Source: Robiginitalea aurantiaca
GTDB lineage: Bacteria > Bacteroidota > Bacteroidia > Flavobacteriales > Flavobacteriaceae
Direction of reading: 5' to 3'
Length of the DNA: 64,000 nt
Assembly (NCBI RefSeq): GCF_030380815.1
Contig: NZ_JAUDUY010000004.1
Location: 124,001-188,000 of the forward strand
Shown here: one piece after another, positions 16,070 through 36,185 of the stretch
Layout of the letters: each line of letters starts with the position of its first letter
Position numbering within the stretch: position 1 is the first letter of the stretch
The notes under the pieces: generated by a model
Seen by the model: only the letters and a program-made list of their open reading frames with translations
The model's database searches: none
Told to the model about the DNA's origin: nothing
Translations under genes and position numbers: made by a program

Positions 16070-17161
16070 TCATTTATTCTCAAAAAGCGAGGCGTCCAGT
16101 TTGGGTAGAATTTTCAAGGCGTTTTGGTAGTATACTTTTCGAAGTACATCATCGGGCAAGTCCATACCATACATCGCCCAGAAAGCATGGTACTTCTTGT
16201 GGTAAGGGAAATATTCATCGGCGGTTTCGAGGACTCTGAAATACGTCGGAAATTCAGAAGGTTGCCAGCTGTCTTTCCCGAAAAGAATCCGATCCTGATA
16301 CCTGATGAAAAATGCCCTTGCCCGGCGTGGTTGCCTTCCCAATTCCGCAATAATTGCCCCAATCCCCACATACATATTGGGAAACTCCTCCATGAGTTCC
16401 GATAACTTGTCCAGGTTGTTGGCGTACCATCCCATATGTGCATTGATAAAGATTGTACCTGAATGTTTTCGGAAAAGGTTATGCTGCTCGTCTATGATCT
16501 GTTGCCATGCCGCAGGATCCGTATCACTCCTTTTCCTCCTCGGTCGCGTTTTTAATTCAAGCCATCGTTCATTTTTTTCATCCATGGGATCCCAGAAAGA
16601 CCTGGGGTCTGCCGAGTGGATCAACACCGGAATGCCAAGGGTTGCACACATTTCCCAGACCGGATCTAACCTTGGATCATCCACGGCTATCCGATTCCCT
16701 TTTACATCCTTGTTACGCAGGCCAAGGCTCTTAAAGATCTTTAAGCCTACGGCCCCGTTGGCTACATCTTCTCTGAGTTGGGCAGCCGCCCGGGATCCCC
16801 AACCCGGTTCCCCTACCCCATTGAAATCCACGTTTGCAAATAACAGGAAACGGTTTGGATAGTTTTTTTGAATATTCGCCATGGCGCCCTGGATTTTTGC
16901 GCCGGAGCCCCCGCTAAGATTAACCAGCACAGCAAGATTAAGGCTGTCCATAGCGGCTATCAAAGCAGAAAGGTCCTGTTCGGGCATGTTATAGTGGTGG
17001 CTGTGTATGTCCACTACAGGAAATTTGGCGCGGGTAACAGGGTTTTCAGGCACAACCAGGGTCGACTCCGGGTTGTATGCCTCAAAGGAAAGTTCCTGTG
17101 CCCCTGCAAAATCAGAACAGAATAGGAATGAGAAAGCTAAGGTCCAAAAAATACGCTGCAT
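16070..17161 (-). CDS. Exported TIM-barrel amidohydrolase (amidohydrolase 2 / ACMSD-like)
   Basis: A 363-residue protein with signal peptide (about 1-21, ending FAGAQ) and an amidohydrolase-2 domain: metal ligands HxH in VVDIHSHHYN, His in VLIHSADP, His in NAHMGW and the catalytic Asp in LFGKDSWQ. Family members are zinc or manganese hydrolases or decarboxylases of small carbonyl compounds. Its start is only 13 bases after the mocA stop, making it the apparent last gene of the cox cluster. A link to CO oxidation is not known from the family and may be incidental. Confidence 0.85.
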   Translation of the reverse strand: MQRIFWTLAFSFLFCSDFAGAQELSFEAYNPESTLVVPENPVTRAKFPVVDIHSHHYNMPEQDLSALIAAMDSLNLAVLVNLSGGSGAKIQGAMANIQKNYPNRFLLFANVDFNGVGEPGWGSRAAAQLREDVANGAVGLKIFKSLGLRNKDVKGNRIAVDDPRLDPVWEMCATLGIPVLIHSADPRSFWDPMDEKNERWLELKTRPRRKRSDTDPAAWQQIIDEQHNLFRKHSGTIFINAHMGWYANNLDKLSELMEEFPNMYVGIGAIIAELGRQPRRARAFFIRYQDRILFGKDSWQPSEFPTYFRVLETADEYFPYHKKYHAFWAMYGMDLPDDVLRKVYYQNALKILPKLDASLFENK

Positions 17162-17174
17162 AGTTTATTAGGGT

Positions 17175-17783
17175 TTAGATTGACGAAATCCCTGCAATTT
17201 TTAGGGCTTTCTGATAGGCTTCAGGTGTGTCGATATCCACAATAACGTCTTTGGGATTGAGAATTACGGATTGCTCATGGAACCTGGCAATTAGTCCTTT
17301 GGCGCCACGACCGGAAGGAATTCCTTTCAGGTCATTCCAGAAACGCCTCGGAAAAAGGGCCGGAACTCCGGCAAATTCACCGTAATCCGAGGCGATAATG
17401 ATACTCGGGTCCTTTTCATGGGATGTCATGAGTTCCCTGAGATAAGCCGCGGTGATCAGCGGTTGATCCACCAGGAGAATAAGGACGGCATTAACTCCTT
17501 CAAATTGTTGTTCAACTGCCCGGATTCCAGCTGAAATACTTGAGCCCATACCCGAATCCCAGTCCGGGTGATAGCAGATGATTGCCGATTCCTCCTGTAA
17601 CGCATTTTGAATTTCTTCGTGGTGGGCTCCTGTCACTAAAAGAACATTATGCAATCCCGTCTGTTGTATTTGCTGCAGGATATGCCGGAGCACCGTGTTC
17701 TGTCCCCATGGCAAAAGGGCTTTGGGTTTTCCCATTCGGCTGGAAGACCCGGCTGTCAAAACCAGAGTGGCTATGCTGTCCAT
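17175..17783 (-). CDS. mocA: MocA-type molybdenum cofactor cytidylyltransferase
   Basis: A 202-residue NTP transferase with the motif LTAGSSSRMGKPKALLPWG and the catalytic-domain signature LLVDQPLI; the later GRGAKGLI and VDIDTPEAY are typical of MocA/YgfJ proteins. MocA joins CMP to Mo-molybdopterin to give the cytosine dinucleotide cofactor (MCD) that CO dehydrogenase and related enzymes use. Its position between coxF and the amidohydrolase within the cox gene array supports MCD over the guanine form. A different, MobA-like enzyme lies at 31453-32049. Confidence 0.85.
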   Translation of the reverse strand: MDSIATLVLTAGSSSRMGKPKALLPWGQNTVLRHILQQIQQTGLHNVLLVTGAHHEEIQNALQEESAIICYHPDWDSGMGSSISAGIRAVEQQFEGVNAVLILLVDQPLITAAYLRELMTSHEKDPSIIIASDYGEFAGVPALFPRRFWNDLKGIPSGRGAKGLIARFHEQSVILNPKDVIVDIDTPEAYQKALKIAGISSI

Positions 17784-17863
17784 TAAAGAACTTAAAATGG
17801 GTTTACCGTACAGGTCATAAAAAGATCAAATCTGTTTGAACCCCTGGAGCTCAGTTAAGGTAA

Positions 17864-18868
17864 CTACTTGATGTACTGGGCGGGATTTTTATCAAAACTG
17901 ACCTTACATCCGTCACAACAGAAATAGACCAGCTCTCCTTTGTATTCTACAATATGTTTCGGGTTGCGCTTGGAGACAGGGACCTGGCATACAGGGTTTA
18001 TATAATATTCTTCCTCAAAGGCACTTCCAGCCGTTATTTCTTCTTCGGCTGGTTCCGTTTTTTGCTGCTGTTGTGACCGCACGGGTTTTACCCCTCCGTT
18101 TCTGAAATCATCGATGATTTCTGCCAGAATGCTAATGGCCACTTCACTCGCTAATTTTGCATTGATGTCCAGGCCTGCCGGACTCCTTAAACGATTGATG
18201 ACTTCCTCCGGCATGCCGGCCTTAGCCAGGGTATCCTTCAGATCCGCCGCTTTTTTTGCACTGGCCACAAAACCGACAAAGTGAGCCCCTGATTCCAGGG
18301 CTTTCTTTACGGATTGATCATCGTTTTCACCTCGTGTGGTCACAATGACATAGGTGTTCTCCAGCACCTTGACGGGCGAGAAGTCTACGGTATCATAGAC
18401 CGCCTGCGCTTTTGGAAACATCTGTGATTCTGCATCCACGGCCATCACACTGACCCTGAAATCCGAAGCTGCGGCCAGGGCCACAAGCTTTCGGGCAATG
18501 TTCGATTTGCCAACTACAATTAATTCTGGTTGAGATATCATCGGTTCTATCAATAATTCTACGGTTCCCTTACTTTGACAAGACATAACGTACTCCTTAT
18601 AATCAGCGGTTTCCCGCGTACCTCCTTCAGGGGATATCCGTATCCTCCTGAATCGCCTAGCCCGTATGACCTCCAGCGCCTCCTTGATCACTATGCCCCG
18701 TACACATCCGCCGCCGACCCAGCCAATCAATTCCCCTGATTCCAGAACAAGGGCCTTGTCGCCTATTTTTCCCGAGCTTGGAGCCACCCGATCCACCACC
18801 TGTACAACAGCGAAGTTATTCCCTTTGGCCCGCTGCGCTTCAATATTATGTATGAGTTCGTTAAACAT
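17864..18868 (-). CDS. coxF: CoxF: XdhC/CoxI family maturation protein with C-terminal YHS domain
   Basis: Residues about 10-80 are the XdhC/CoxI domain (VVDRVAPSSGKIGDKALV, GWVGGGCVRGIV). Residues about 110-245 form the Rossmann part (VVGKSNIARKLVALAAASDF, SPAGLDINAKLASEVAISILAEI). XdhC proteins bind the molybdenum cofactor and present it for sulfuration and insertion. A linker rich in Gln and Glu leads to residues 288-334, a YHS domain with Cys294 (NPVCQV) and Cys317-318/Cys321 (FCCDGCK), a metal-binding module. The gene overlaps coxE by 8 bases. The fusion of a metal-binding YHS unit to the XdhC chaperone is notable because the enzyme has a Mo-Cu centre; copper handling is my inference. 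Confidence 0.85.
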   Translation of the reverse strand: MFNELIHNIEAQRAKGNNFAVVQVVDRVAPSSGKIGDKALVLESGELIGWVGGGCVRGIVIKEALEVIRARRFRRIRISPEGGTRETADYKEYVMSCQSKGTVELLIEPMISQPELIVVGKSNIARKLVALAAASDFRVSVMAVDAESQMFPKAQAVYDTVDFSPVKVLENTYVIVTTRGENDDQSVKKALESGAHFVGFVASAKKAADLKDTLAKAGMPEEVINRLRSPAGLDINAKLASEVAISILAEIIDDFRNGGVKPVRSQQQQKTEPAEEEITAGSAFEEEYYINPVCQVPVSKRNPKHIVEYKGELVYFCCDGCKVSFDKNPAQYIK

Positions 18869-19997
18869 CCATCAGCAATTTTTCCAACTTCAATAAACTA
18901 TCCAGATTATGTGCAGATTCAAAGGCATCCAGATGGGGCATCACGTTCACCATCCCCTTTTGAATGGGCTGGTAGTCCTTCATACCTTTTAAAGGATTCA
19001 GCCATACCAGCGTCTTGCATCTTCTCCTGATTGTTCCCACAGCTTCTTTCAGCTGGGTCACATTGCCCGTTTCCAATCCGTCACTGAGAATTACCACAAT
19101 ATGCTTTTGGCTTAAAAACTTGCTTCCATACACGTCCAGAAACTCCGTCAGGGATTCCCCTATCTTAGTTCCACTGGACCAGGATTGCACATTTGCGCCA
19201 ATTTCCTTTAAAACCTGAAATTCCCTGTTTGCCCTCAGCATAGGGGTCACATGGGTCAGGTGGGTGCTAAAGGTAAAGAACTCCAACTCCCGGAAGTACT
19301 TTTTTAGCACCATCACATATCGCAAAAGATAATAACTATACGTATCCATGGAACCGCTAACGTCCAGGATAAAAACGACTTTTCGCTTTTCCTTTCTTTT
19401 TTTACGATGCGCCAAATCCAGCATCAGCCCACCCTTCGAAATACTGTGGCGAATGGTCTTGCGAATATCAATCCTCCCTTTATTTGCATCTTCAAGCCGC
19501 CTTTTAAAGCGCATGCTCATCTGATGGAACAATTCTTCCGCTAATTCCTCCAAACGTTCCTTATCTGCAACATCCACTTTGGAAAAATCCGTGAAACGAA
19601 GGCGGGTATTCTCATTCGCTCCTTTTGTTTGCTTGGCTTCTTTTTCCTCTTTTTGCTGCTTCGGCTTGTTGAATTTGGCGCCCAAAAAAATAATGGTATC
19701 CGTTTCCGGTTCTTTTTTTAATTGTTTGACCGTCTTTTTCCGCGCCTCGAGTTTCTCTTCATAATACCGACTCCAAAACCGGTTGAACATTTCATCGAAA
19801 CGGTCATAGTGCTCTTTGCGCTTGCAATAAATAGCCTTTAAACTATAGTGGAAAAGCTTTCTGTCCAGCCAGTACCCGCGTTCGGCGATTTCAAATGCAT
19901 CCCGGGTATCCTGGGGCCCAATCACAAACTGTCGTTCCCTACAATAGAATGTAAAGTCGATCAACCGTTCTTTGAATGTTTTATCTATTGCGACCAA
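18861..19997 (-). CDS. coxE: CoxE: VWA-domain protein of the CO dehydrogenase maturation pair
   Basis: A 378-residue CoxE-like protein: a charged N-terminal helical half, then a von Willebrand A domain at about 200-370 with MIDAS motif DVSGSMD (VVFILDVSGSMDTYSYYLL), Thr in SSGTKIGESL and Asp in VILSDGLETGN. In Oligotropha, CoxE works with the AAA+ ATPase CoxD to build the Cu-S-Mo site of CoxL. The gene follows coxD after 13 bases and overlaps coxF by 8, so translation is probably coupled. Confidence 0.88.
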   Translation of the reverse strand: MVAIDKTFKERLIDFTFYCRERQFVIGPQDTRDAFEIAERGYWLDRKLFHYSLKAIYCKRKEHYDRFDEMFNRFWSRYYEEKLEARKKTVKQLKKEPETDTIIFLGAKFNKPKQQKEEKEAKQTKGANENTRLRFTDFSKVDVADKERLEELAEELFHQMSMRFKRRLEDANKGRIDIRKTIRHSISKGGLMLDLAHRKKRKEKRKVVFILDVSGSMDTYSYYLLRYVMVLKKYFRELEFFTFSTHLTHVTPMLRANREFQVLKEIGANVQSWSSGTKIGESLTEFLDVYGSKFLSQKHIVVILSDGLETGNVTQLKEAVGTIRRRCKTLVWLNPLKGMKDYQPIQKGMVNVMPHLDAFESAHNLDSLLKLEKLLMDV

Positions 19998-20010
19998 AGT
20001 ACTCTAAGGA

Positions 20011-20883
20011 CTAATCTATTGGCATAAGAAACTCCTGAACGGTCCGGTTCCGAACAAATTCAATATCGTCTTTGTGTTTTAGAACACTACCTATGGTATT
20101 TCGCACGATCTCATCTGTGATATTATCAGCATTGAGAAGCAGCAGTGTTTTTGCCCAATCCAGGGACTCCGCGATGCCTGGTGGTTTCTGTAAGCTGGAC
20201 TTTCGCAAATTATGTATAAAATTTACGACCTGTCCCGCTAACTCCGCATCGATCTCAGGTAGTTTTCGCGCAATGATGTCAATTTCCATGGCCTTGGTCG
20301 GGAAATCTACCCAATGATAGAGGCACCTCCTCCTGAGGGCATCACTCAATTCCCGGGTCCGGTTTGAAGTGAGGATAACCAACGGTTTGGAAACGGCTTT
20401 AATGGTACCCAACTCCGGGATGCTTATCTGAAAATCAGATAAAAGCTCCAGGAGGAAGGCTTCAAACTCCTCATCAGCCCGGTCAATCTCGTCTATCAGA
20501 AGGACCACGGGTTTGTCGGCAGTTATGGAACGCAACAAGGGTCGTTTAAGAACATACTCCATCCCGAATATTTCTTCGCCCAGGGTACGTTTGTCCTTTT
20601 CCTGTTCAAAAAGTTTTATATGCAACAACTGCTTTTGGTAATTCCACTCGTAAATGGTTGTACCTACATCCAGCCCTTCATAGCACTGCAAACGAATTAA
20701 ATCCGTTTTTAAATGTCCGGCCAGCGTGCTCGCCAGCATCGTTTTACCTACTCCCGGGTCCCCTTCCAAAAGCAGGGGCTTCTCCAGGTTATTCAGCAGG
20801 AAAACGGAGGTTGCCAATTCCTTGTTCAGTATATAGCCTTGCTCATAAAAACTACTTATAAGCCCTTCAATTTCTTTGTTCAA
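20011..20883 (-). CDS. coxD: CoxD: MoxR-type AAA+ ATPase
   Basis: A 290-residue MoxR family ATPase. Walker A GDPGVGKTMLAS (about 40-51), Walker B VVLLIDEIDRAD, sensor 1 ILTSNRTRELSDALRRRC with the arginine finger region, and the C-terminal lid domain are all present. Established work on CoxD shows that this class of chaperone is needed for sulfuration and copper insertion in CoxL. It lies between coxG and coxE and has the expected length (about 295). Confidence 0.9.
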   Translation of the reverse strand: MNKEIEGLISSFYEQGYILNKELATSVFLLNNLEKPLLLEGDPGVGKTMLASTLAGHLKTDLIRLQCYEGLDVGTTIYEWNYQKQLLHIKLFEQEKDKRTLGEEIFGMEYVLKRPLLRSITADKPVVLLIDEIDRADEEFEAFLLELLSDFQISIPELGTIKAVSKPLVILTSNRTRELSDALRRRCLYHWVDFPTKAMEIDIIARKLPEIDAELAGQVVNFIHNLRKSSLQKPPGIAESLDWAKTLLLLNADNITDEIVRNTIGSVLKHKDDIEFVRNRTVQEFLMPID

Positions 20884-20956
20884 TAGCCTGATTTTTTAAA
20901 TAGCGTAAAGCCATGCCGGGTTGGGCATAGCTTTTAAATTTCAAATCAAAAGGTGC

Positions 20957-21427
20957 TTATACAGCTGCTTCAGCAGCCGCCAGCTTCTTAGAGAAGTTAG
21001 AAACAAATTGCTTGAACAACTGATTCGAAACCGTGGTGATCAGGCGGGATCCAAACTGAGCAATCTTCCCATTGACCGTGACATCCATAATGGCGTCGAG
21101 TTTTGAGCCACCGGTCTCGGTTTCCGTGATGTTCATGGTCATGGTCATTTCTGCATTTCCATTGCCCTTAACATCCACCCCGTTTCCGGTTAGAATGATC
21201 TTACGGTTATCTGCATCTACTTCATCGTAATAAATGTCCGCATCGTACTTCGCGCCAATAGGCCCGAACTTCATGCCCACCTTACCTTTATAATGGTTAT
21301 CCCCAACCTTTTCATCAATAGATACACCAGGAACGCAATCCATTACTTTGTTGGGATCGATCAGGTGTTCCCAAACCAATTCACCGCCCTGTGGAACCTC
21401 AAACGATTTTTCTAATTGTGCTTTCAT
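20957..21427 (-). CDS. coxG: CoxG: SRPBCC-family CO dehydrogenase accessory protein
   Basis: A 156-residue SRPBCC/CoxG protein (LIDPNKVMDCVPGVSID, KVGMKFGPIGAKYDADI, MDVTVNGKIAQFGSRLI). The family has a hydrophobic ligand cavity and is encoded with carbon monoxide dehydrogenases; recent work on mycobacterial CoxG points to carrying menaquinone and/or anchoring the enzyme at the membrane, which would link CO oxidation to respiration. It follows coxL after 67 bases. The C-terminal 35 residues (LFKQFVSNFSKKLAAAEAAV) form an amphipathic Ala/Lys tail that fits a membrane-association role. Confidence 0.88.
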   Translation of the reverse strand: MKAQLEKSFEVPQGGELVWEHLIDPNKVMDCVPGVSIDEKVGDNHYKGKVGMKFGPIGAKYDADIYYDEVDADNRKIILTGNGVDVKGNGNAEMTMTMNITETETGGSKLDAIMDVTVNGKIAQFGSRLITTVSNQLFKQFVSNFSKKLAAAEAAV

Positions 21428-21494
21428 ATCCTTTTTTTATAGCTGATTTAAACTCCCGAAATTGACATCCGATCCCTTCCGGGAGTTTGTATTT

Positions 21495-23852
21495 TTATGA
21501 ATGTGCCTGAATGGCTTCCCACACCTTGGCAGGGGTAATTGGAATGTCCAAATGCTCGATTCCCAGGGGCGCCAGGGCATCGATAATGGCATTGGCAATG
21601 GCCGGTGGCGCCCCAACAGTAGGGGATTCCGCTACACCTTTAGCCCCCAGGGGATGGTGGGGGGACGGAGTAATGGTATGGCCCGTTTCCCAATGCGGGG
21701 ATTCCACTGCAGTGGGTACAAGGTAATCCATGAAGGTTCCATTTAATACGTTTCCTTCATCATCATACTCAATACCCTCGTACATCGCAGGGGCAATACC
21801 CTGGGTAAGCCCACCGTGTACCTGCCCTTCTACGATCATGGGGTTAATGATATTCCCGCAATCGTCGATGGCGACAAATCGCTTGACATCTATAGCCCCG
21901 GTCTCTTTTTCAACCTCGACCACACAGATGTATGCCCCGTTGGGAAAGGTCAGGTTGGGTGGGTCGTAGTAATGGGTAGCTTCAAAACCAGGTTCCATTC
22001 CAGGTGGAATATTGGTGTAGGCCGCGAAAACGACCTCTTGTATGGTTTTTGATTTTTCAGGAGCTCCTTTTACAAAATATTTACCCACTTCCCACTCGAT
22101 GTCTTCTTCACTCACCTCAAGGAGGTAGGCAGCTATTTTCTTTCCTTTATCCCTGAGTTTACGCGCCGCTATGGCCGCAGCTGCACCAGCTGTTGGGGTA
22201 CTCCGGCTCGCGTAGGTTCCCAAACCATATGGGGCAGTATCCGTATCCCCTTCATCGATCTCTATATCGGTATAGGGGATACCCAGTTCCTCAGCGAGAA
22301 TCTGTGCATAGGTAGTCTCGTGCCCCTGCCCCTGAGATTTTGTACCAAACCGCGCCAGGGCCTTTCCTGTTGGATGTACACGAATCTCAGCACTGTCAAA
22401 CATGGCAATACCCAAAATATCGAAATCTTTGGACGGACCAGCACCTACTACTTCTGTAAAGGTGGAGATCCCAATACCCATGAGTTTCCCTTCCTTGCGC
22501 TTTTGAGCCTGTTCCTTCTTATAGTCGTCATACCCGAGCATGTCCATGGCCTTTTTAAGGGTAGCCTCATAATCCCCACTATCATAGCTCCAGCCCAGTG
22601 GAGAGGAGTATGGGAATTGCTCCTTTTTGATGAAATTTTCCAGCCGGAGCAGGGCCGGATCCTTGCCGATTTTAGCCGCGAGTTTGTCTACCATCCGCTC
22701 AATGGCATGCACGGCCTCCGTCACCCGGAATGAACAGCGGTAAGCTACCCCACCGGGCGCCTTGTTGGTGTAAACCGCATCCAGTTCGGCAAAGGCGTGT
22801 TCATAATCATAGGAGCCTGTACAAATGGAAAACATTCCGGTCGGGTACTTTGAAGGATTCGCTGAAGAATCCGTATATCCGTGATCGGCTAATGTGGATA
22901 CTTTAAACGCCTGTATTTTACCGTCTTTAGTTGCAGCCAGTTCACAGTCCATATGATAGTCACGGGCAAAACCATTGACTAGATTCTCAGACCGGTCCTC
23001 TATCCATTTCACGGGCTTGCCGATCAGGAACGTAGCTGCAATGGCTACAACATAGGCCGGGTAAACCGGTACCTTCCCCCCAAAACCGCCTCCGATATCC
23101 GGGGATATGATACGTATTTTTTCTTCGGACAGGCCTACATGACCAGCTACCAATGCTACTACGGTTCGTATGGCATGTGGTGCCTGAGTCGTCAGATATA
23201 CCACAAGCTTCTCCGTATCCTTATCATAGGAAGCCACACAACCACAGGTTTCGATAGAAGCCACGTGAATTCGGGGAAGGTGAATACGTTCTTTAACAAC
23301 TACATCTGCATTGGCTATAACTTCATCCGTTTTGGCTCTGTCCCCCCGTTCCCAGTGATAGATCTGATTGTCTTTCTGGTCCTCCTTGTCGGGTCGCAAT
23401 AAGGGGGCGTCTTTATCCAATGCCTTAAAAGGATCCACAATGGGGTCCATAGGTTCGTATTGGACGTCAACCGCCTCGGCCCCATCCACAGCGATATAAC
23501 GGTCTGTCGCTATAACCGCGCAAACCTCCTGTGCCTGGTGCATCACCGTATCTGTCGGCAATACCATTTGGGTATCGGACAAAAGGGTCGGCATCCAATG
23601 CAGGTTGTACTGTGCCAGGTCTTCTCCCGTAATTACAGCCAGAACACCCGGGATAGCCAGTGCCTTTTCCTTATTGATGCTTTTGATTTTTGCATAGGCA
23701 TAAGGGCTCCTGACCATTACCATGGTCAACATTCCAGGTAATTTTACATCATCTACGTAATTCCCTTTGCCGTGCAAAAAGCGGGCATCTTCTTTTCTTT
23801 TCACAGAGTGACCCATTCCGCCTACCTCTGCTGATGTTTTACATTTAAACAT
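21495..23852 (-). CDS. coxL: CoxL: form I carbon monoxide dehydrogenase large subunit
   Basis: The catalytic Mo-Cu subunit of aerobic CO dehydrogenase, 785 residues (the Oligotropha protein has 809). The active-site loop AYRCSFR at 370-376, with Cys373 as copper ligand, is the accepted signature of form I; form II enzymes have AYRGAGR. The molybdopterin contact GGGFGGK is at 254-260 and the catalytic Glu742 lies in GVAESPTVG. The enzyme oxidises CO with water to CO2 and passes electrons via CoxS and CoxM to quinone. Order M-S-L, close spacing (20 bases from coxS) and the accessory genes after it agree with form I. In this phylum such loci are uncommon. Confidence 0.93.
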   Translation of the reverse strand: MFKCKTSAEVGGMGHSVKRKEDARFLHGKGNYVDDVKLPGMLTMVMVRSPYAYAKIKSINKEKALAIPGVLAVITGEDLAQYNLHWMPTLLSDTQMVLPTDTVMHQAQEVCAVIATDRYIAVDGAEAVDVQYEPMDPIVDPFKALDKDAPLLRPDKEDQKDNQIYHWERGDRAKTDEVIANADVVVKERIHLPRIHVASIETCGCVASYDKDTEKLVVYLTTQAPHAIRTVVALVAGHVGLSEEKIRIISPDIGGGFGGKVPVYPAYVVAIAATFLIGKPVKWIEDRSENLVNGFARDYHMDCELAATKDGKIQAFKVSTLADHGYTDSSANPSKYPTGMFSICTGSYDYEHAFAELDAVYTNKAPGGVAYRCSFRVTEAVHAIERMVDKLAAKIGKDPALLRLENFIKKEQFPYSSPLGWSYDSGDYEATLKKAMDMLGYDDYKKEQAQKRKEGKLMGIGISTFTEVVGAGPSKDFDILGIAMFDSAEIRVHPTGKALARFGTKSQGQGHETTYAQILAEELGIPYTDIEIDEGDTDTAPYGLGTYASRSTPTAGAAAAIAARKLRDKGKKIAAYLLEVSEEDIEWEVGKYFVKGAPEKSKTIQEVVFAAYTNIPPGMEPGFEATHYYDPPNLTFPNGAYICVVEVEKETGAIDVKRFVAIDDCGNIINPMIVEGQVHGGLTQGIAPAMYEGIEYDDEGNVLNGTFMDYLVPTAVESPHWETGHTITPSPHHPLGAKGVAESPTVGAPPAIANAIIDALAPLGIEHLDIPITPAKVWEAIQAHS

Positions 23853-23872
23853 AATTTCTTTGTTTCTTGAGG

Positions 23873-24361
23873 TTAGACCGTGGTTTCTTTTTCTTTCTGC
23901 ATCTCCTCAGCGGCTTGCCGGATCGATTTTACAATATTGTTGTACCCGGTGCACCGGCATAGATTTCCGGATATCCCCCAACGGATTTCCTCCTCTGTAG
24001 GATTAGGGTTGTTGTTGAGCAAATCGATGGAACGCATGATCATCCCGGGAGTACAGAATCCGCAATGCAAACCATGCTGATCGTGGAAGCCTTGCTGGAT
24101 CGGGTGGTTCGTGCCCTCCGCAGCAATACCTTCTATGGTGGTGATTTCCGCCCCGTCTGCCCTAACGGCGAGATAGGTGCAGGACTTCACGGACTTACCA
24201 TTCAACAAAATAGTACAAGCCCCACAATTGCTGGTATCACAACCAATGTGGGTTCCTGTTAAATCTAAATTTTCCCGAATAAAGTGTACCAAGAGCAGAC
24301 GGGAATCCACTTCTGCTGTAACGCTCTGCCCATTGATGGTCAGTGTAATTTCGTGTTTCAT
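23873..24361 (-). CDS. coxS: CoxS: CO dehydrogenase small (2x[2Fe-2S]) subunit
   Basis: A 162-residue iron-sulfur subunit. The N-terminal plant-ferredoxin-like cluster site is [12 protein letters not shown] with a further Cys in VKSCTY, and the C-terminal site is HCGFCTPGM with the [10 protein letters not shown] motif. It moves electrons from the Mo-Cu centre to FAD in CoxM. It starts 10 bases after the coxM stop and is followed by coxL after 20 bases, indicating one operon. Length matches the 166-residue Oligotropha CoxS. Confidence 0.93.
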
Positions 24362-24371
24362 AGTTTATTTT

Positions 24372-25241
24372 TTACTGTCTCGCTCTTTCCAAAGCTTTAT
24401 TCAACATTCTTTTTGTGATCGTATCGACCAGTGACCTTTTATAAGCTTCAGAACCTCTCAAATCAGAAGTAGGCTCACAGTCTTCACTGGCGAATACGCC
24501 AGCCTGACCGATGAGGTCATCAGTTATTTTTTTACCCCTTAGAAGCTCCTCGGCGCGATCTACCCGCATCGGTACGGCGCTTACGTTGGTCAGTGCAATT
24601 CCAATTTCCCGGCATACACCGTCATCATCGAGTTCAACATAAACTGCAACACCTGCCGTGGCGTAGTCACCGACCTTGCGTTCTACCTTATGATAGGCAC
24701 CGCCGCTGTGTTTTGATGCCTTGGGAATGTGAATTTCTACCAAAATATCCGTGGGTTCCAGGGCCGTCATATAGAAGCCGTGAAAAAATTCATCAATAGG
24801 TATGGATTTCTGTCCATCCACCCCTTCTGCAATGACCGTGGCCCTCATAGCCAGCATTAATGCCGGTTGGTCATTGGCGGCATCCCCATGGGCGATATTC
24901 CCACCCAGGGTTCCCACGTTTCTCACGGAAGGATCTGCCGTTAGCTTTATGGCATCGCCAAAGATGGGATACTTAGATCGGAGCAGGTCCGAGTATTCCA
25001 TCTCGGTCTGCGTAGTCATGGCTCCGATCTTCAACAAATCGCCTTCCTCCTTAATAAAGGAAAGGCCCTGGATTTTACTGATGTCAATAATGTGCTCGGG
25101 GGTGGCAAAACGAAGTTTCATCATGGGTAACAGGCTGTGCCCCCCAGACATATATTTCGCTTCCTCACCAAGAGATTCTGCCAAGGCGATGGCATCTTTG
25201 AGGGATGACGCCTTGTGATAGGTGAAATTGGCTGGAATCAT
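24372..25241 (-). CDS. coxM: CoxM: CO dehydrogenase medium (FAD) subunit
   Basis: The 289-residue flavoprotein subunit, almost identical in length to Oligotropha CoxM (288). The FAD pyrophosphate motifs are YMSGGHSLLPMMKLR (about 33-47) and VRNVGTLGGNIAHGDAANDQP (about 106-126), both standard for the family. It begins the cox operon and has a promoter-like element in front (25275-25305). The start ATG at 25241 gives the family N-terminus (MIPANFTYHKASSL). Confidence 0.93.
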   Translation of the reverse strand: MIPANFTYHKASSLKDAIALAESLGEEAKYMSGGHSLLPMMKLRFATPEHIIDISKIQGLSFIKEEGDLLKIGAMTTQTEMEYSDLLRSKYPIFGDAIKLTADPSVRNVGTLGGNIAHGDAANDQPALMLAMRATVIAEGVDGQKSIPIDEFFHGFYMTALEPTDILVEIHIPKASKHSGGAYHKVERKVGDYATAGVAVYVELDDDGVCREIGIALTNVSAVPMRVDRAEELLRGKKITDDLIGQAGVFASEDCEPTSDLRGSEAYKRSLVDTITKRMLNKALERARQ

Positions 25242-25444: not shown

Positions 25445-26626
25445 ATGTATTCCCAGCTGTATCTAGACTACAATGCCACCACCCCATGCTCGCGTGAAGT
25501 GATCGATGCGATGTCTCCCTACTTTGGTCAGCATTTTGGAAATCCTTCCAGCAGTCATCATCCCTTTGGGTGGCTGGCTAAAAGTGCTGTAGAGGACGCC
25601 CGGAATTCAATGGCAGAAAATTTAGGGGTAGCTCCAGCGGAGCTGATCTTCACTTCGGGAGCTACAGAGAGTATCAATGCGATTTTAAAGGGAGTTGTCG
25701 GAACGGCCAGTCCAGGGAAGAAACATATCATTACAACCAAAGCAGAGCATAAAGCGGTTCTGGATACCTGTGCCTTTCTGCAAACCACAGGCGTCGAAGT
25801 CACGTATCTCGATGTGGATTCCAGGGGATTGATTCCAATGGAAGAATTCAGGAAGGCCCTGCGACCGGACACGGCTTTGGTTGCTGTAATGTACGCCAAC
25901 AATGAGACCGGGATCATACAACCCCTTGAAGAAATTGCGGAACTCACCCATGGGAATGGATCCCTGCTGTTTTCCGATACCACTCAGGTTCTCGGCAAGG
26001 TAGCTGTGAATGACGTTTTGAAACTTGTGGACTTTGCCTGTTTTTCAGGACATAAAGTTTATGGGCCTAAAGGCATCGGACTTCTTTATACCAAAAACAA
26101 TTCAGGTTACGATGCGCTGCCGAGTTTTATACAGGGCGGGGGTCAGCAGAAAGGCCAGAGGGGCGGAACATTGAATACGCCTCTTATTGTAGGAATGGCA
26201 AAAGCGATCGAACTTGCTTCCCGGAACCTGGAGGAAGAACAGGTCCGGCTCACAACACTGAGGGATCAATTGGACAAGGGATTATCTGCAATTGAACTCG
26301 CCATTTCTAACAACGCAGGTGTAGAGCGTTTGCCCAATACTTCCCATTTTTCCTTTCCCTATGTGGATGGCGCCTCCCTCCTGACTTCTTTAGGCCGGGA
26401 AATCGCAGTCTCCAATGGGTCTGCATGCAACTCAGCTTCTGTGGAGCCCTCCCATGTACTGCTCTCTATGGGTATTGAACGAAGTTTGGCCTATGCTTCC
26501 ATCCGGTTAAGCCTTGGTGCTTATACCACAAAAACGGATATTGAGAAGGCGGTTGAAATTATTTCGAAAGCAGTAGCCAGACAAAGGGAAGACAATATTT
26601 TGTGGGAACGGAGAAAACAGGTTTAA
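25445..26626 (+). CDS. Class V cysteine desulfurase (NifS/IscS-like), possibly for Mo-cofactor sulfuration
   Basis: A 393-residue PLP enzyme that takes sulfur from cysteine: the N-terminus YLDYNATTP, PLP lysine Lys204 in SGHKVYGPKG and active-site Cys328 in SNGSACNSAS. It diverges from coxM across 203 bases and lies beside the CO dehydrogenase and cofactor genes, with no iscU/sufE in sight. In Rhodobacter a NifS-like enzyme supplies sulfur to Moco on XdhC, so a job in making the cyanolysable sulfur of CoxL or IorB is a reasonable inference. General Fe-S assembly is the alternative. Confidence 0.88.
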   Translation: MYSQLYLDYNATTPCSREVIDAMSPYFGQHFGNPSSSHHPFGWLAKSAVEDARNSMAENLGVAPAELIFTSGATESINAILKGVVGTASPGKKHIITTKAEHKAVLDTCAFLQTTGVEVTYLDVDSRGLIPMEEFRKALRPDTALVAVMYANNETGIIQPLEEIAELTHGNGSLLFSDTTQVLGKVAVNDVLKLVDFACFSGHKVYGPKGIGLLYTKNNSGYDALPSFIQGGGQQKGQRGGTLNTPLIVGMAKAIELASRNLEEEQVRLTTLRDQLDKGLSAIELAISNNAGVERLPNTSHFSFPYVDGASLLTSLGREIAVSNGSACNSASVEPSHVLLSMGIERSLAYASIRLSLGAYTTKTDIEKAVEIISKAVARQREDNILWERRKQV

Positions 26627-26726: not shown

Positions 26727-27077
26727 ATGTCAAAAACAGTTTACCGGATTTATGTCATTGAATTGTCCAAAAGGGTCTTCACCGAAAACAGGAGGTTCCG
26801 CGAAGCGAATCCGCAATTCAATGGTGTCCTGCAGTGCCTGTATGTTGGAATGACAAGCAAAACCCCAAAGGAGCGGTTTACACAACACAAAACGGGCTAC
26901 ATCAATAAAAAAGGACACAACCTGGCTTCGAACATGGTCCATAAATACGGTCTGTATTTAAGGCCCAGCCTCTATAATCACATACTGCCGGTTAAATCCA
27001 GAGAAGAGGCCCTGGAAATGGAAAAGCAACTCGCCCTTGAACTGAGGAGAAAAAAATATGCGGTTTGGTTCAATTAA
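26727..27077 (+). CDS. GIY-YIG-like nuclease domain protein
   Basis: A 116-residue protein that fits the GIY-YIG fold in outline: YRIYVIEL (first strand), CLYVGMTSKTPKERFTQHK (the YVG strand, and Arg/His of the helix) and a Glu within SREEALEMEKQL that could be the metal ligand. Solo GIY-YIG proteins of this size are often of unknown function. It starts 100 bases after the cysteine desulfurase on the same strand, across a short palindrome (ATCGGGCCCCGAT). Assignment is by motif reading. Confidence 0.65.
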   Translation: MSKTVYRIYVIELSKRVFTENRRFREANPQFNGVLQCLYVGMTSKTPKERFTQHKTGYINKKGHNLASNMVHKYGLYLRPSLYNHILPVKSREEALEMEKQLALELRRKKYAVWFN

Positions 27078-27170: not shown

Positions 27171-28277
27171 TCAAACCCTTTCGTGTATCGGGCCCTTTTT
27201 ATTCCTTAGCATTCCCCCACGCTTTCCGGAGAACACACTGAGGATTTCAGCGAAAATACTGGTTGCGATCTCCTCCGGGGTATTCGCCCCAATTTCAAGG
27301 CCGCAGGGTGCGAAAATCCGGTCCTGCTGCTGAGCAGAAAACACAACCCCTTTTGATGCTAATTCCGCGACCATTTTTTCAAAACGCTTTTTTGGCCCGA
27401 GCGAAGCGATGTATGGAGCCGGACTGTTAATAAGTTCCCGGAGGTTGGCTATATCCGTTTTATAGTCATGGGCCATCAGAAGGACCGCTGTCCGTGAATC
27501 GATCTCGGGCCGCGCATCCGCATCTTTGGGATAGAGGTTTGAAACCGACTTCAATTTTTCCTTCTTTAATTTTTGGATATTCCCAACCAGGCTTACTTCC
27601 CAATCCATGACCTCCGCCATTTCCAGTAAAGGGTACACGTCGTAATTATCCCCATAAATCGCCAGGTGAAAGGCAGGGGGAATAAGTTCGATAAAAACTT
27701 TAGCTACCCCACCCTGTTTTTCATAAGTAAATGTCCTGGATTTTTTCTGATCTTGAACTTCCGTGATTTTCGTGAGAATAAAATCTCTAAGGTCTGTATT
27801 TAGGCAATTGTCCAGGGTTGAACGCTGGGCATCGTAATAAAAGCTCTGCCCCAGAGAGACGGATTCCCAACTTCCGCTCAGGGCGGTAATCGTGGCAATG
27901 ATATGCGCTCCTCTTTCAGCGAGGCACCTCTGAAGCATTTTCATCATTTCGGAGTCTTCCGAAATAGGGGAAATCAGCACGTCGATGATCCCGTTACAAC
28001 CCAGCCCTACGCCTATTTCCTTTTCTTTTGAGGTATCATAGGTGACGATAGAGGGCTGCTGCTTTAATATGGCAATCTGTGATCTTTGAAGGGCATCTCC
28101 CTCCAGACATCCTCCACTTATCCCCCCTTCGAAGACGCCGGATTCAAAAACAATCATTCGTGCCCCTTCTCGCCTGTACGAAGACTCTTCCACGCGTACC
28201 ACCTGGGCAATCGCACATTTTTCTTCAGAAGTCTTCAGTGTATTGTACAGATTCAATATCGATTTTATCTCTTTCAT
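27171..28277 (-). CDS. XdhC-family molybdenum cofactor maturation protein (second copy)
   Basis: A 368-residue full-length XdhC: the N-terminal CoxI/XdhC domain (VVRVEESSYRREGARMIVF, GGISGGCLEGDA, GLGCNGIIDVLISPI) and a C-terminal Rossmann-like XdhC_C domain (LAIYGDNYDVYPLLEMAEVMDW, GANTPEEIATSIFAEILSV). Unlike CoxF it has no YHS domain. It probably serves the IorAB-type enzyme encoded at 33312-35992, since each xanthine-oxidase-family enzyme tends to have its own XdhC. It diverges from moeA. Confidence 0.88.
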   Translation of the reverse strand: MKEIKSILNLYNTLKTSEEKCAIAQVVRVEESSYRREGARMIVFESGVFEGGISGGCLEGDALQRSQIAILKQQPSIVTYDTSKEKEIGVGLGCNGIIDVLISPISEDSEMMKMLQRCLAERGAHIIATITALSGSWESVSLGQSFYYDAQRSTLDNCLNTDLRDFILTKITEVQDQKKSRTFTYEKQGGVAKVFIELIPPAFHLAIYGDNYDVYPLLEMAEVMDWEVSLVGNIQKLKKEKLKSVSNLYPKDADARPEIDSRTAVLLMAHDYKTDIANLRELINSPAPYIASLGPKKRFEKMVAELASKGVVFSAQQQDRIFAPCGLEIGANTPEEIATSIFAEILSVFSGKRGGMLRNKKGPIHERV

Positions 28278-28600: not shown

Positions 28601-29821
28601 ATGTGCATGGAAAACATTTTTATCACCTATGAGAATGCCCTGTCGATTCTGGCAGCCCATTCTGAAGACTTCCCTGTTGAAGACAGGAAACTGGAAGATT
28701 CTATTGGCGGCTATCTGGCTGAAGATCTTATAGCGGATCGTGACTTCCCCCCTTTTGATCGGGTGACCATGGACGGTATCGCCATTTCCTATCCGGCCTT
28801 TGAAAAAGGGCAGCGGGAATTTGCGATTGAGGATATCGCACCAGCGGGAACGCCGCAGAAATCACTTCAGGATACCCAACACTGCATAGAGGTTATGACC
28901 GGTGCCATTATGCCGGAAAATGCGGATACCGTTGTCCGATATGAAGATCTGGAGATAAACCAGGGGAAAGCGCGAATTGTCCCTCCCACCCTTATGCCTA
29001 AACAGAATGTGCATTTCAAAGGGATCGATCGGGATAAGGGAAGTATTATTGTCCCTGCAGGGGTACAACTATCAAGTGCTGAGATCAATATCGCAGCCGC
29101 AGTGGGAAAAGCTTCTTTAAAAGTAAGGCGCATGCCCAGGGTCGTCATTGTTTCGACCGGGGATGAACTCGTGGATGTACATCAGCAACCCGAACTACAT
29201 CAAATCCGCAGGTCCAACATTTATGGGATTCAAAGCACGCTAAAGACCTGGGGGGTTTCCTCGGATCTCAGGCACTTACCGGATGACAGGGACGAAATGG
29301 AACTTCTGGTATCCAAGTATCTGGACGCCTATGATTTGTTGATTTTTACGGGTGGTGTATCCAAAGGAAAATTTGATTACCTGCCCGAGGTACTGGAAAG
29401 CCTGAACATTGAAAAACACTTCCATAAAATTCAGCAGCGTCCCGGAAAACCTTTTTGGTTTGGCAGCAATAAGGAAGGGAAAAAGATATTTGCCCTCCCT
29501 GGTAATCCGGTTTCTTCCTTTGTCTGTGTATATGTGTACCTGAAATTCTGGTTGAACACCTGCCTCGGCGTGACGTCCAAACCCCTTTATGTATCCTTAA
29601 AGCGGGACGTAAACTTCAAGCCCAATCTGGTCTATTTTCTGGAGGCGCGTCTGGAAAGCCAGCCTGACGGAACCCTTGTGGCTGACCCAGTTTCCGGCAA
29701 TGGTTCAGGAGACTTTGCAAACCTTGTCAATACGGACGGCTTTTTGGTTCTTCCCCAAAATAAAACGGAGTTCAAAACGGGAGAAGTATATCTTTTTGTA
29801 CCTTATAGGTGTTATTCGTGA
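28601..29821 (+). CDS. moeA: Molybdopterin molybdenumtransferase MoeA
   Basis: A 406-residue MoeA, which inserts molybdate into adenylylated molybdopterin. Domains II, III and IV are readable: DFPPFDRVTMDGIAI, the MTGAIMPENADTVVRYED motif, VVIVSTGDELV, the LIFTGGVSKGKFDYLPEVL catalytic loop and IFALPGNPVSSFVC. A second in-frame ATG at codon 3 (28607) could be the start. The downstream membrane-protein gene overlaps its end by 13 bases. Confidence 0.93.
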   Translation: MCMENIFITYENALSILAAHSEDFPVEDRKLEDSIGGYLAEDLIADRDFPPFDRVTMDGIAISYPAFEKGQREFAIEDIAPAGTPQKSLQDTQHCIEVMTGAIMPENADTVVRYEDLEINQGKARIVPPTLMPKQNVHFKGIDRDKGSIIVPAGVQLSSAEINIAAAVGKASLKVRRMPRVVIVSTGDELVDVHQQPELHQIRRSNIYGIQSTLKTWGVSSDLRHLPDDRDEMELLVSKYLDAYDLLIFTGGVSKGKFDYLPEVLESLNIEKHFHKIQQRPGKPFWFGSNKEGKKIFALPGNPVSSFVCVYVYLKFWLNTCLGVTSKPLYVSLKRDVNFKPNLVYFLEARLESQPDGTLVADPVSGNGSGDFANLVNTDGFLVLPQNKTEFKTGEVYLFVPYRCYS

Positions 29822-30382: not shown

Positions 30383-31456
30383 TCAGGAAACTTCCGGCTC
30401 CAGGTTTCGCATTCCTCCTGAAATCCAGCTCAAAGTGGCGGACTGAAGCCTGCCCTCAAGTTTTTGGTAAGCCTGGGCGCTCCTGCTCCCGGAATGGCAA
30501 ATAAGATAAACAGCTCCTGCATGGTCCAATTCAGCAATGCGTTGCTCAAGTTCCATCAGCGGGAAATTTTGTGCCTCCGGCAGATGGAAAGCTTCAAATT
30601 CCTCCGGTTCCCGAACATCGACGAGCAAAGGGGCTTGATCCGATTTGCTCCTTTCCAGGTAATCCGAAAGGCTTACCCCTTCTCCAGTGCCACAAAATCC
30701 GGAATTGTAGTGGGCTTCATCCCGGACCTCCCGGGATTCTTGTGAAGGATCCTTCTGAAAACGCACCTGTCGCGATTCCTGGTCCAGGGCACTGAACAGC
30801 AACAGTTTTCCGGATAGAACCTCTCCCAGTCCACAAATTACTTTTACGGCTTCCAGTGCCTGTAGGCTCCCGATGATCCCGGGCAGGATACCAAGGGTCC
30901 CGAGCTGGTTACAATCGGGGATTTCCCCGGGTTTGGGTATTTGTGGAAACAGGCAGCGGTAGGTGGGACCTTCTTTGTAATTAAAAACACTGAGTTGCCC
31001 CTCGAAACCGTGAAGGGCTCCGTAGATCCATGGAATTCGTTTGATTACACAAACATCGTCCAGCAGGTATCGGGTAGGAATACGATCCGTTGCGTCCACC
31101 ACCAGGTCATAGGAATCGACCAAATCCAGGGCATTTGAAGGCTGAAGGAAGGTTGGGTGTAATTCTATTCGCGTATCGGGGTTCTGTTCCTGTAATTTCT
31201 GGCCTAAAATTGTGATTTTTGAGTTGCCGCAATCGGATGGCGTATAGATGGGTTGACGATGTAAATTGGTTTCTTCGATAGTGTCTCCGTCAACAATCCC
31301 CAGGGTGCCCACCCCCATGGCATTGAGGTATTGGCATACCGGAACTCCTAAACCCCCTGCTCCCACAACCAGGACCCGGGCAGCACCCAGAAGCTCTTGT
31401 CCTCTGGCCCCAAAGGCCTTTAGGCGGATTTGACGATCATATCGGTTAACGCTCAT
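30383..31456 (-). CDS. moeB: MoeB/ThiF-like adenylyltransferase with C-terminal rhodanese domain
   Basis: A 357-residue fusion like human MOCS3. The adenylyltransferase half has nucleotide motif GAGGLGVPVCQYLNAMG and the DGDTIEETNLHRQ signature, with Asp in VDATDRIPTRYLL. It adenylates the C-terminal Gly-Gly of MoaD. The C-terminal rhodanese (about 255-350) has LVDVREPEEFEAFHLPEA and catalytic Cys in ICHSGSRSAQ, so it could also thiolate MoaD. The usual two CxxC zinc pairs are reduced to one Cys (TYRCLF, without the first Cys) and the second CxxC is absent. It overlaps mobA by 4 bases. Confidence 0.88.
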   Translation of the reverse strand: MSVNRYDRQIRLKAFGARGQELLGAARVLVVGAGGLGVPVCQYLNAMGVGTLGIVDGDTIEETNLHRQPIYTPSDCGNSKITILGQKLQEQNPDTRIELHPTFLQPSNALDLVDSYDLVVDATDRIPTRYLLDDVCVIKRIPWIYGALHGFEGQLSVFNYKEGPTYRCLFPQIPKPGEIPDCNQLGTLGILPGIIGSLQALEAVKVICGLGEVLSGKLLLFSALDQESRQVRFQKDPSQESREVRDEAHYNSGFCGTGEGVSLSDYLERSKSDQAPLLVDVREPEEFEAFHLPEAQNFPLMELEQRIAELDHAGAVYLICHSGSRSAQAYQKLEGRLQSATLSWISGGMRNLEPEVS

Positions 31457-32049
31457 TTTGAATTCAATTGAGAAAGGATGTCCGCATATTCCCCGGGTTC
31501 ATTTGCATTGGAAAGCCAGAGATCATCTTCCGGGAAAACCAGCGCAGTATTCCCATTGATTAAAAATTTGCGGGGACAACTGCTTTCTGAAGTTTGCATA
31601 TACGTTTCTGCTGTTTTAAGGCCCAGTGGCTCCCAAATCGCAGCAAGGGGCTCAGGCAGTCCGGACTTGTGCGTGGCAAAGGCGGTGGCCATTGCCCCGG
31701 GATCCCGGCGTTCTATCAGGTACTGGAGCACTTTTTTGTCAACAAGGGGAAGGTCACAGGCGACCACCAGCCAGGCGGCCTCAGGATAAGCGTGATGCGC
31801 AGACAACAACCCGTTAAAAGGTCCCTTAAAAACGTTTTCATCGAGGATGAAATCCATTCCTTCCGGGATTTCGGATGCCTGTTCGGGACGGATGCTCAGA
31901 AATACGCCGGAGCACAGGGTTTTGAGTTCCTCGTAGAGATATTCCCGCTGGGGTTTGTTATGATACTCCAGCTTTCCTTTGTCTGTACCCATGCGCCGGC
32001 TTTGGCCTCCGGCCAGGACCAATCCCATAATTTCATTGCCTTGCAACAT
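31453..32049 (-). CDS. mobA: MobA-like molybdenum cofactor guanylyltransferase
   Basis: A 198-residue nucleotidyltransferase with GLVLAGGQSRRMGTDKGKL (about 9-27), the DxPL motif in VVACDLPLVDKKVLQYL and FNGLLSAHHAYP. The arrangement (SRRMGTDK rather than the MocA SSRMGKPK) suggests it makes the guanine dinucleotide form of the cofactor; a MocA-like enzyme for the cytosine form is encoded at 17175-17783. It sits between moaA and moeB, overlapping moeB by 4 bases. Confidence 0.85.
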   Translation of the reverse strand: MLQGNEIMGLVLAGGQSRRMGTDKGKLEYHNKPQREYLYEELKTLCSGVFLSIRPEQASEIPEGMDFILDENVFKGPFNGLLSAHHAYPEAAWLVVACDLPLVDKKVLQYLIERRDPGAMATAFATHKSGLPEPLAAIWEPLGLKTAETYMQTSESSCPRKFLINGNTALVFPEDDLWLSNANEPGEYADILSQLNSK

Positions 32050-32065
32050 ATCAGCATGTATGAGG

Positions 32066-33049
32066 TTAGCCTCCTATTGAGGTCATGGAACTTCCAAATA
32101 TAGAGCCGAAACGGTCCTGTGCTTCAAAGCCATCTTTGGCCCTGGATCCGACAGCGCGCACAAGGGCCTCTTCCACAAAAGAATCCTGCAGACCTGACCT
32201 GAGGGTATCCCTGAGATTGGCCACTGGTTTTCCATACAGGCAGGTAATGAGATCCCCTGTTGCCGTTACCCTAAGGCGATTACAGCTTCCGCAAAAGGTC
32301 CGGCTAAAGGAAGGGATGATGCCAAAGGAGCCGGTGTGTCCAGGTATTTTATAGTTCACAGAAGTAGAAGTAAGCGGGGCTGGAAGTTTTTCAAATGAAG
32401 GATACCGCTTTTGAATGTGCTCCAGGATTTTTCGATGGTTCCAATTGAGGTCCTTGAAATTCCGACTCCCACCATTAAAAGGCATTTCTTCAAGAAAACG
32501 CACGCTAACAGGATGCACCCGCTGGAATTCCAGCATATGATGGATATCCTCCTCGTTCTGCCCCTCGAGGACGATAAAGTTTATCCGCACCTTTATTTTG
32601 GATTCGATAAGTCGCATCAGGTTTTCATGCACCAGTTCGAATTGATCCCGACGCGTGATTCGCTTAAAAGATTCCGGGGTAATCGCGTCCAGACTCACAT
32701 TTACGCTATGCACCCCATATTCCTCCAGTTGTTCAATGTAAGGACCTATAAGTGTCGCATTGGTTGTGATCGATATCTCGCGTAAGCCTTCGAGGCCGGA
32801 AAGGTGCTCAATGAGCTGCATTACATCTTTGCGAACGAAGGGTTCCCCCCCGGTTAACCTTATTTTATCGACACCCCTGCTTGCCAGAATATTGCAAAGG
32901 CGCTTCATTTCGTCTATACTCAGGAGGGATTTCCGATCCGAGAAGGCGATTCCCTCTTCGGGCATGCAATAATTACATCTGAGGTTGCACCGATCGGTGA
33001 CCGCCAGGCGGACGTAATTAATGACGCGGTTGTGATTATCTATCAACAT
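32066..33049 (-). CDS. moaA: GTP 3',8-cyclase MoaA
   Basis: A 327-residue radical SAM enzyme that starts molybdopterin synthesis from GTP. The radical SAM cluster is Cys21-x3-Cys25-x2-Cys28 (CNLRCNYC), the GGEPFVRKDV loop follows, and the second cluster is in FCGSCNRLRVTATGDLITC. The C-terminal GG expected for activity is present (SMTSIGG). It lies 15 bases after moaD. MoaC, its partner, is not in this window. Confidence 0.95.
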   Translation of the reverse strand: MLIDNHNRVINYVRLAVTDRCNLRCNYCMPEEGIAFSDRKSLLSIDEMKRLCNILASRGVDKIRLTGGEPFVRKDVMQLIEHLSGLEGLREISITTNATLIGPYIEQLEEYGVHSVNVSLDAITPESFKRITRRDQFELVHENLMRLIESKIKVRINFIVLEGQNEEDIHHMLEFQRVHPVSVRFLEEMPFNGGSRNFKDLNWNHRKILEHIQKRYPSFEKLPAPLTSTSVNYKIPGHTGSFGIIPSFSRTFCGSCNRLRVTATGDLITCLYGKPVANLRDTLRSGLQDSFVEEALVRAVGSRAKDGFEAQDRFGSIFGSSMTSIGG

Positions 33050-35992: not shown

Positions 35993-36185
35993 GGTTTGAA
36001 ATATTAATTCGTGGCTACCCTTAAAAATATCAAATTTTGGGCGAAGTGTGCTCAATTTAACAGGATATTTAAGTTTTAGGGTGCTGTATGGCGTGAAAAC
36101 TACTTCTATTTCGATACAGTCTTTTTTGATTGGGGCCAGATACTAGGATTCTGAAAAGGCCGTTTTCCTTGAAACGAACAAATCC

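Follow-up and report, generated by a model that had tools for sequence, protein, structure and literature searches.

A form I carbon monoxide dehydrogenase locus in Robiginitalea aurantiaca whose maturation factor CoxF ends in a YHS domain

Gene content of the cox locus

We examined a 64,000-nucleotide stretch of the genome of the flavobacterium Robiginitalea aurantiaca (assembly GCF_030380815.1, contig NZ_JAUDUY010000004.1, positions 124,001 to 188,000), referred to here as the window, for genes of aerobic carbon monoxide (CO) oxidation. A set of cox genes lies on the minus strand within window positions 16070-25241, in the transcription order coxM-coxS-coxL-coxG-coxD-coxE-coxF-mocA, followed by an amidohydrolase gene. 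All of the named cox genes are full-length open frames in the list of open reading frames. The initial annotation had called this interval a complete form I CO dehydrogenase locus, which the large-subunit score, motif, gene set and phylogeny described below bear out. It had also placed CoxM, CoxS, CoxG, CoxD, CoxE and CoxF after CoxL, together with MocA; all of these genes are present, but coxM and coxS precede coxL, and only coxG, coxD, coxE, coxF and mocA come after it. The amidohydrolase at the low end of the interval (17161-16070) had been left unnamed. The features are as follows:

24372..25241, minus strand: coxM, FAD subunit of CO dehydrogenase, 289 amino acids (aa); PF00941 (FAD_binding_5), PF03450; first gene of the M-S-L order
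23873..24361, minus strand: coxS, subunit with two [2Fe-2S] clusters, 162 aa; PF00111/PF01799 (Fer2/Fer2_2); eight cysteines align with Oligotropha CoxS
21495..23852, minus strand: coxL, molybdenum-copper (Mo-Cu) catalytic subunit, form I, 785 aa; TIGR02416; AYRCSFR, Cys373, Gln223, Glu742; placed by tree
20957..21427, minus strand: coxG, SRPBCC protein, short form, 156 aa; PF06240 (COXG); match to the solved CoxG 8uds
20011..20883, minus strand: coxD, MoxR-type AAA+ ATPase, 290 aa; AAA families; Walker A GDPGVGKT
18861..19997, minus strand: coxE, VWA protein, 378 aa; PF05762 (VWA_CoxE); MIDAS motif DVSGS
17864..18868, minus strand: coxF, XdhC-family maturation factor with a C-terminal YHS domain, 334 aa; PF02625, PF13478 (XdhC_CoxI/XdhC_C), PF04945 (E 1.5e-11)
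17870..18001, minus strand: YHS domain of CoxF, residues 290-333 (Pfam YHS), with Cys294, Cys317, Cys318 and Cys321; proposed Cu(I) site
17175..17783, minus strand: mocA-like molybdopterin cytidylyltransferase, 202 aa; PF12804 (NTP_transf_3)
16070..17161, minus strand: secreted-looking amidohydrolase, 363 aa, downstream of mocA; PF04909

For both coxD and coxE the listed start codon is TTG, which leaves the exact start uncertain. MocA is assigned to family only, as its best NCBIfam match (TIGR03310, 130.4 bits) falls under the cut-off of 186.45. The order M-S-L-G-D-E-F recurs across flavobacterial loci as far as each piece of DNA reaches, a recurrence that, judged from gene order, is far beyond chance. 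An amidohydrolase occupies the same position at 10 of 43 flavobacterial loci, many of whose pieces are incomplete.

CoxL belongs to form I

CoxL scores 1210.9 bits against TIGR02416 (CO_dehy_Mo_lg), for which the curated equivalog cut-off is 991.15. The initial annotation had read AYRCSFR with Cys373, and Glu742, in this protein; both are exact, the motif placing the cysteine at 373 and the glutamate lying within GAKGVAES. The closest solved structures are CO dehydrogenases (1018-1049 bits), the next being quinoline 2-oxidoreductase at 477 bits. In an alignment to Oligotropha CoxL, Gln223, Cys373, Ser374, Phe375, Tyr547 and Glu742 are all retained, as are all eight cluster cysteines of CoxS.

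The initial annotation had named clustering of CoxL with form II or other hydroxylases as a refuting outcome, and the form II part of this check was run. A sample of 142 rows was thinned to 56, and then to 54 by removing two long form II rows. In the maximum-likelihood tree of these 54, the 48 form I rows make up one clade apart from the 6 form II rows (support 100/100), and the window's CoxL, which does not cluster with form II, joins nine other flavobacterial rows in a 10-row clade with the same support (100/100). This clade adjoins L106, a Rhodothermia-type row, and L039; the 56-row tree agrees on the placement of CoxL. The region of the tree looks like the group called "mixed 1" in a passage of PMC6794299, a label we apply only putatively.

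Could CoxL instead be a form II enzyme, or another hydroxylase of the xanthine oxidase family acting on an aldehyde or heterocycle, with CO not its substrate? These enzymes share a superfamily, form II is present in Flavobacteriaceae (13 loci, L072-L084, with AYRGAGR, the order S-L-M and about 41% identity), and for CoxM and CoxS by themselves the top-scoring models are those of glyceraldehyde dehydrogenase, at scores under the cut-off. However, CoxL exceeds the form I equivalog cut-off, carries the form I motif, follows the order M-S-L and lies inside the form I clade, which makes this alternative very improbable. Neither AYRGAGR nor the order S-L-M occurs at the window locus, and form II identity is rejected on motif, gene order, score and tree; other hydroxylases are rejected on score and motif, the tree having contained form I and form II rows only. 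AYxCSFR, the TIGR02416 score, tree position, the presence of CoxD, CoxE and CoxF (by Pfam family and as Oligotropha homologues) and the order coxM-coxS-coxL, by which PMC13240472 defines form I, all agree. In four genomes (G018, G050, G102 and G396), a form I CoxL is accompanied by another full-length match whose score is that of a form II enzyme.

Based on these features, the locus very probably encodes a working form I (Mo-Cu) aerobic CO dehydrogenase together with its assembly proteins. Two residues count against it: glycines that Oligotropha has near Glu742 and Tyr547 are alanines here (Ala741 and Ala548). In the mechanism we propose, a Mo-S-Cu site in CoxL, held by Cys373 and flanked by Glu742, would oxidize CO to CO2. 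The two [2Fe-2S] clusters of CoxS, and then the FAD of CoxM, would relay the electrons to a CoxG-bound quinone and on to the respiratory chain. MocA would make the cytosine-dinucleotide Mo cofactor, and CoxD, CoxE and CoxF would insert sulfur and copper into the folded enzyme.

The final step of this electron path is less certain. CoxG of the window matches the solved CoxG 8uds (E 2.9e-18), and CoxG is described in PMC13240472 as a membrane protein that binds menaquinone and hands electrons to the quinone pool. Flavobacterial CoxG proteins are 154-158 residues long, with exceptions in L012, L014 and L047, and do without the hydrophobic tail of the Oligotropha protein. Counting against a membrane route, a hydrophobic C-terminal tail was not found in the window's CoxG (best 19-residue hydropathy 0.67, versus 1.97 in Oligotropha), and the route is less certain for lack of a tail of the Oligotropha type. 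Quinone transport would then either need no membrane anchor or depend on some other contact.

Distribution in Bacteroidota and other phyla

Genome samples, each of which includes its form I-bearing center genome and some of which overlap, were searched for form I CoxL above cut-off. Within the family, 10 of 397 genomes had a match, as did 7 of 345 in the phylum Bacteroidota, in line with the earlier statement that form I is uncommon in this phylum. Samples around other centers gave 9 of 195 (class of a Rhodothermales genome), 17 of 349 (phylum of a Gammaproteobacteria genome, Pseudomonadota) and 55 of 251 (phylum of a Chloroflexi genome). Searching genome contigs at the protein level gave 56 loci, and 43 of these were judged flavobacterial from their titles and identity. 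Among the carriers are named strains of Maribacter, Robertkochia, Eudoraea and Pelagihabitans, several of them cultured, such as Maribacter arcticus DSM 23546, M. orientalis DSM 16471, Robertkochia marina and Eudoraea chungangensis KCTC 42048. Relative to the window, CoxL of the flavobacterial loci is 91.6-97.7% identical, CoxM 70-91% and CoxF 58-74%. The high identity of CoxL may reflect either unusually strong constraint on the catalytic subunit or its exchange.

The rarity of form I in the family raises the possibility of a decayed or contaminating locus that the host does not use: no form I CoxL passes the cut-off in 387 of the 397 family genomes, nor in the two other sampled genomes of the same genus (G191 and G360). 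Against this, the cox genes are full-length open frames, their order is the same in relatives and their guanine-plus-cytosine content (47.5%) is close to that of the window (47.3%), so that we consider disuse through decay or contamination highly unlikely.

Form I cox genes in Bacteroidota have already been published, the phylum being listed in passages of PMC6794299, PMC13203968, PMC13240472 and PMC10305171. Given this and the close clusters in relatives, the locus is not new in kind. It does place an established trace-gas metabolism in a marine family in which no verified CO oxidizer was seen; the characterized marine CO oxidizers given in a section of PMC13203968 are 13 species, all Pseudomonadota. 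As several carriers are named cultured strains, the prediction of CO oxidation is testable at once.

A metal domain at the C-terminus of CoxF

One feature of the locus that the studied Oligotropha system lacks is at the end of CoxF, where the XdhC body is followed by a YHS domain. The structure model presents YHS as a separate module, with block values of the predicted local distance difference test (pLDDT) of 80-88 over residues 291-334 and 72 over 281-290, joined by a linker (residues 260-279) with pLDDT under 50 (model mean 83.3; 22 sequences). Cys294, Cys317 and Cys321 are invariant across 22 YHS-CoxF proteins.

We then surveyed CoxF tails in form I loci drawn from searches centered on the window's CoxL, from the Bacteroidota, Pseudomonadota, Chloroflexi and Rhodothermales samples and from chosen plasmid records. 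Each of the 132 form I rows stands for a different CoxL sequence of at least 700 aa, one pair (L024 and L035) being near-identical, and 124 of them have a complete CoxF on the same piece. Among these 124, the tail is YHS in 99 and HMA in 8, and 17 have neither. The YHS count includes 40 rows close to the window's CoxL, which 44 of the 132 rows closely resemble (the other 4 being unscored).

Pfam was run on 107 CoxF proteins: 20 of the 38 flavobacterial ones with YHS, each of the 62 further ones with YHS (the window's CoxF among them), all 8 with HMA, 15 of 19 tail-less ones (the other four being second copies or a fragment), and L212 and L213, which had been classed by rule as second XdhC. It found YHS in 79 and HMA in 8; a custom profile called YHS in 82 of the scanned proteins, so that 3 or more fell short of the Pfam threshold (E 0.001). 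The YHS row L252 (genome G1273) belongs to a form I locus.

Among the XdhC-family proteins scanned, the two domains were found only on CoxF of form I loci. With Pfam, neither YHS nor HMA was found on the second XdhC of form I loci (0 of 36 scanned, from 61), or on XdhC proteins that have either no coxL on their piece or a nearest one outside form I (0 of 31, from 40, the 9 others being partial frames). For most of these 31 the flank in view was about 1.5 kilobases (kb), and one of them, L260, shares its piece with a form II coxL and, at a greater distance, a form I coxL.

All 8 HMA rows come from the Rhodothermales-centered class sample, while of the 17 tail-less rows 16 are Pseudomonadota (Oligotropha included) and the last is Nonomuraea, the single actinomycete genome in the count. 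YHS is spread over the tree and is present in its first-branching row, which is halobacterial. Four labels placed on the tree (form II included) require 6 changes, versus a mean of 16.3 after shuffling. Rooted on form II, the simplest reading would be an ancestral YHS tail, lost in a proteobacterial clade and in Nonomuraea and replaced by HMA two to three times. A point on the other side is that the HMA rows by themselves show no clear clustering (3 changes, with as few in 34 of 500 shuffles).

One idea considered was that MHYT membrane proteins might replace the metal tail in loci whose CoxF has none. A crude motif for MHYT proteins, applied to locus records that were not deduplicated, matched 1 of 22 tail-less, 0 of 90 YHS and 0 of 8 HMA records, and missed an MHYT protein annotated in L097. 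Among the literature matches listed, no paper paired YHS with CoxF or XdhC, and two selenoprotein reviews name both YHS and CO dehydrogenase, in separate table rows only. Domain databases may list the architecture.

Copper delivery to the active site

The delivery of copper and sulfur to the Mo-Cu site is treated as an open question in PMC4240915, which also reports that Oligotropha coxE and coxF mutants make the enzyme without copper and proposes CoxF as the copper supplier. Oligotropha cox genes are reported to have been expressed in Cupriavidus necator (Ralstonia eutropha) H16 (PMC6011924). A YHS domain in another setting is described in PMC4626032 as a probable copper module. The CoxF tail offers specific residues and a natural domain swap with which to approach this question.

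HMA is a domain of known metal carriers. Since two different metal domains are fused at the same place on an XdhC paralogue said to bring copper, we propose that the YHS tail may be a tethered Cu(I) donor, and give this an even chance; in such a role it would probably hold Cu(I) and pass it on. The tail could alternatively be a copper (or zinc) sensor, or a structural module, that regulates assembly without donating copper. This is the less likely role, given that HMA occupies the same place in 8 rows and that all 36 scanned second XdhC proteins have neither domain.

Counting against the proposal, 17 form I rows, Oligotropha included, have neither a YHS nor an HMA tail, so not every form I enzyme needs one. 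A published copper-binding motif of Oligotropha CoxF was also considered and dropped as a copper-specific feature. It appears to lie around Cys97, which is invariant in CoxF, and its likely counterpart in the second XdhC, Cys88, is also invariant (two consensus lines compared by eye).

Neighboring genes and the source of sulfur

Upstream of coxM, the window continues with genes of Mo-cofactor and sulfur metabolism:

25445..26626, plus strand: NifS/IscS-type cysteine desulfurase, 393 aa, divergent from coxM; PF00266; NifS and IscS models below cut-off
27171..28277, minus strand: second XdhC-family protein, 368 aa, without a metal domain; PF02625/PF13478 only; kept upstream in relatives
28601-29821, plus strand: moeA, named from reading the sequence
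30383-31456, minus strand: ThiF/rhodanese moeB-like gene (Pfam)
31453-32049, minus strand: mobA-like gene (Pfam)
32066-33049, minus strand: moaA, named from reading the sequence

A small GIY-YIG-like protein (26727-27077), whose Pfam score is just under cut-off, lies between the desulfurase and the second xdhC and is also present in L006, L010 and L059. Farther on, at 33312-36055, is a second Mo-hydroxylase pair, a 738 aa Mo subunit with a twin-arginine (Tat)-like start and a 2Fe-2S subunit; a similar Mo subunit is encoded on contig C48.

The source of sulfur for the Oligotropha CO dehydrogenase is not known, according to a passage of PMC4240915. A NifS/IscS-type desulfurase is divergent from coxM and within 1.5 kb of it in 31 of the 36 flavobacterial loci with enough upstream DNA, and is within about 2.2 kb in 4 of the other 5; none is in view in L015. 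The neighboring cysteine desulfurase probably supplies the sulfur of the CO dehydrogenase. As a second xdhC and moeA also adjoin, it may serve all of the Mo hydroxylases of the cell. A rival that we rate only a little below even is that the gene works for other Mo hydroxylases or for Fe-S assembly, its place near cox being due only to the Mo-cofactor neighborhood. Its position beside the second xdhC and moeA, and the other Mo hydroxylase at 33312-36055, fit that rival, and its steady closeness to coxM across flavobacterial loci counts against it.

Taking copper and sulfur together, the XdhC body of CoxF may dock on the apo-enzyme while YHS, or HMA in Rhodothermia, carries Cu(I) to the sulfurated Mo site, with a tail ancestral to form I and lost in Oligotropha-type proteobacteria, and with the adjacent desulfurase as the missing sulfur source. 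We regard this combined reading as a balanced bet. If it is correct, the organism in which maturation has been studied would be the exception, as the Oligotropha-type lineage would have lost the tail.

Host physiology

The host genome has two matches to haem-copper oxidases, and it has MoaC. No RuBisCO (PF00016) was matched in this genome by a search that did match in 5 of 14 control genomes, and carboxydotrophy (autotrophic growth on CO) was set aside for this reason. CO would thus be a supplementary source of electrons and not a source of carbon. One NiFe hydrogenase is encoded, with a large subunit closest to the solved structure 3myr and then to Hyd-1 enzymes. Frames for its small and large subunits, a cytochrome b-like protein and a maturation protease-like protein lie together at about 378.0-382.2 kb of contig C11 (G000; L108), about 6 kb from moaC. 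This hydrogenase is a possible second trace-gas energy source.

The best reading of this gene content is a heterotroph that would draw supplementary electrons from CO and perhaps from H2. Respiration of CO and its use in starvation are suggested by analogy with studied form I relatives, as described in passages of PMC6794299. A report that cautions against this picture, in a section of PMC10305171, is that Robiginitalea biformata, which has a group 1l hydrogenase, did not substantially consume H2 in three weeks; the presence of genes may therefore not mean activity.

Comparison with known systems

XdhC/CoxI factors of xanthine dehydrogenase-type enzymes share the XdhC Rossmann domain with CoxF, mostly together with XdhC_CoxI, and differ at the C-terminus, where neither YHS nor HMA was found in any of the 67 scanned. 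The cox cluster on pHCG3 of Oligotropha (Afipia) carboxidovorans OM5 resembles the window locus in the order M-S-L, in encoding CoxD, CoxE, CoxF and CoxG and in AYRCSFR, with a CoxL that is about 58% identical. In R. aurantiaca, by contrast, coxG is short and lies between coxL and coxD, CoxF has the YHS tail that Oligotropha lacks, a cysteine desulfurase adjoins cox, and RuBisCO was not matched in the genome.

Clusters of Maribacter, Robertkochia, Eudoraea, Pelagihabitans and uncultured Flavobacteriaceae share the order M-S-L-G-D-E-F, the CoxF tail and, mostly, a short CoxG (longer in L012, L014 and L047), whereas the downstream genes (mocA, amidohydrolase) vary. Rhodothermia-type clusters (L041, L138-L142, L224 and L226) likewise encode a form I CoxL, and their CoxF also ends in a metal domain, which is HMA (MxCxxC), not YHS. 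Set beside these systems, the locus itself is ordinary for form I, and the CoxF tail is the part that deserves attention.

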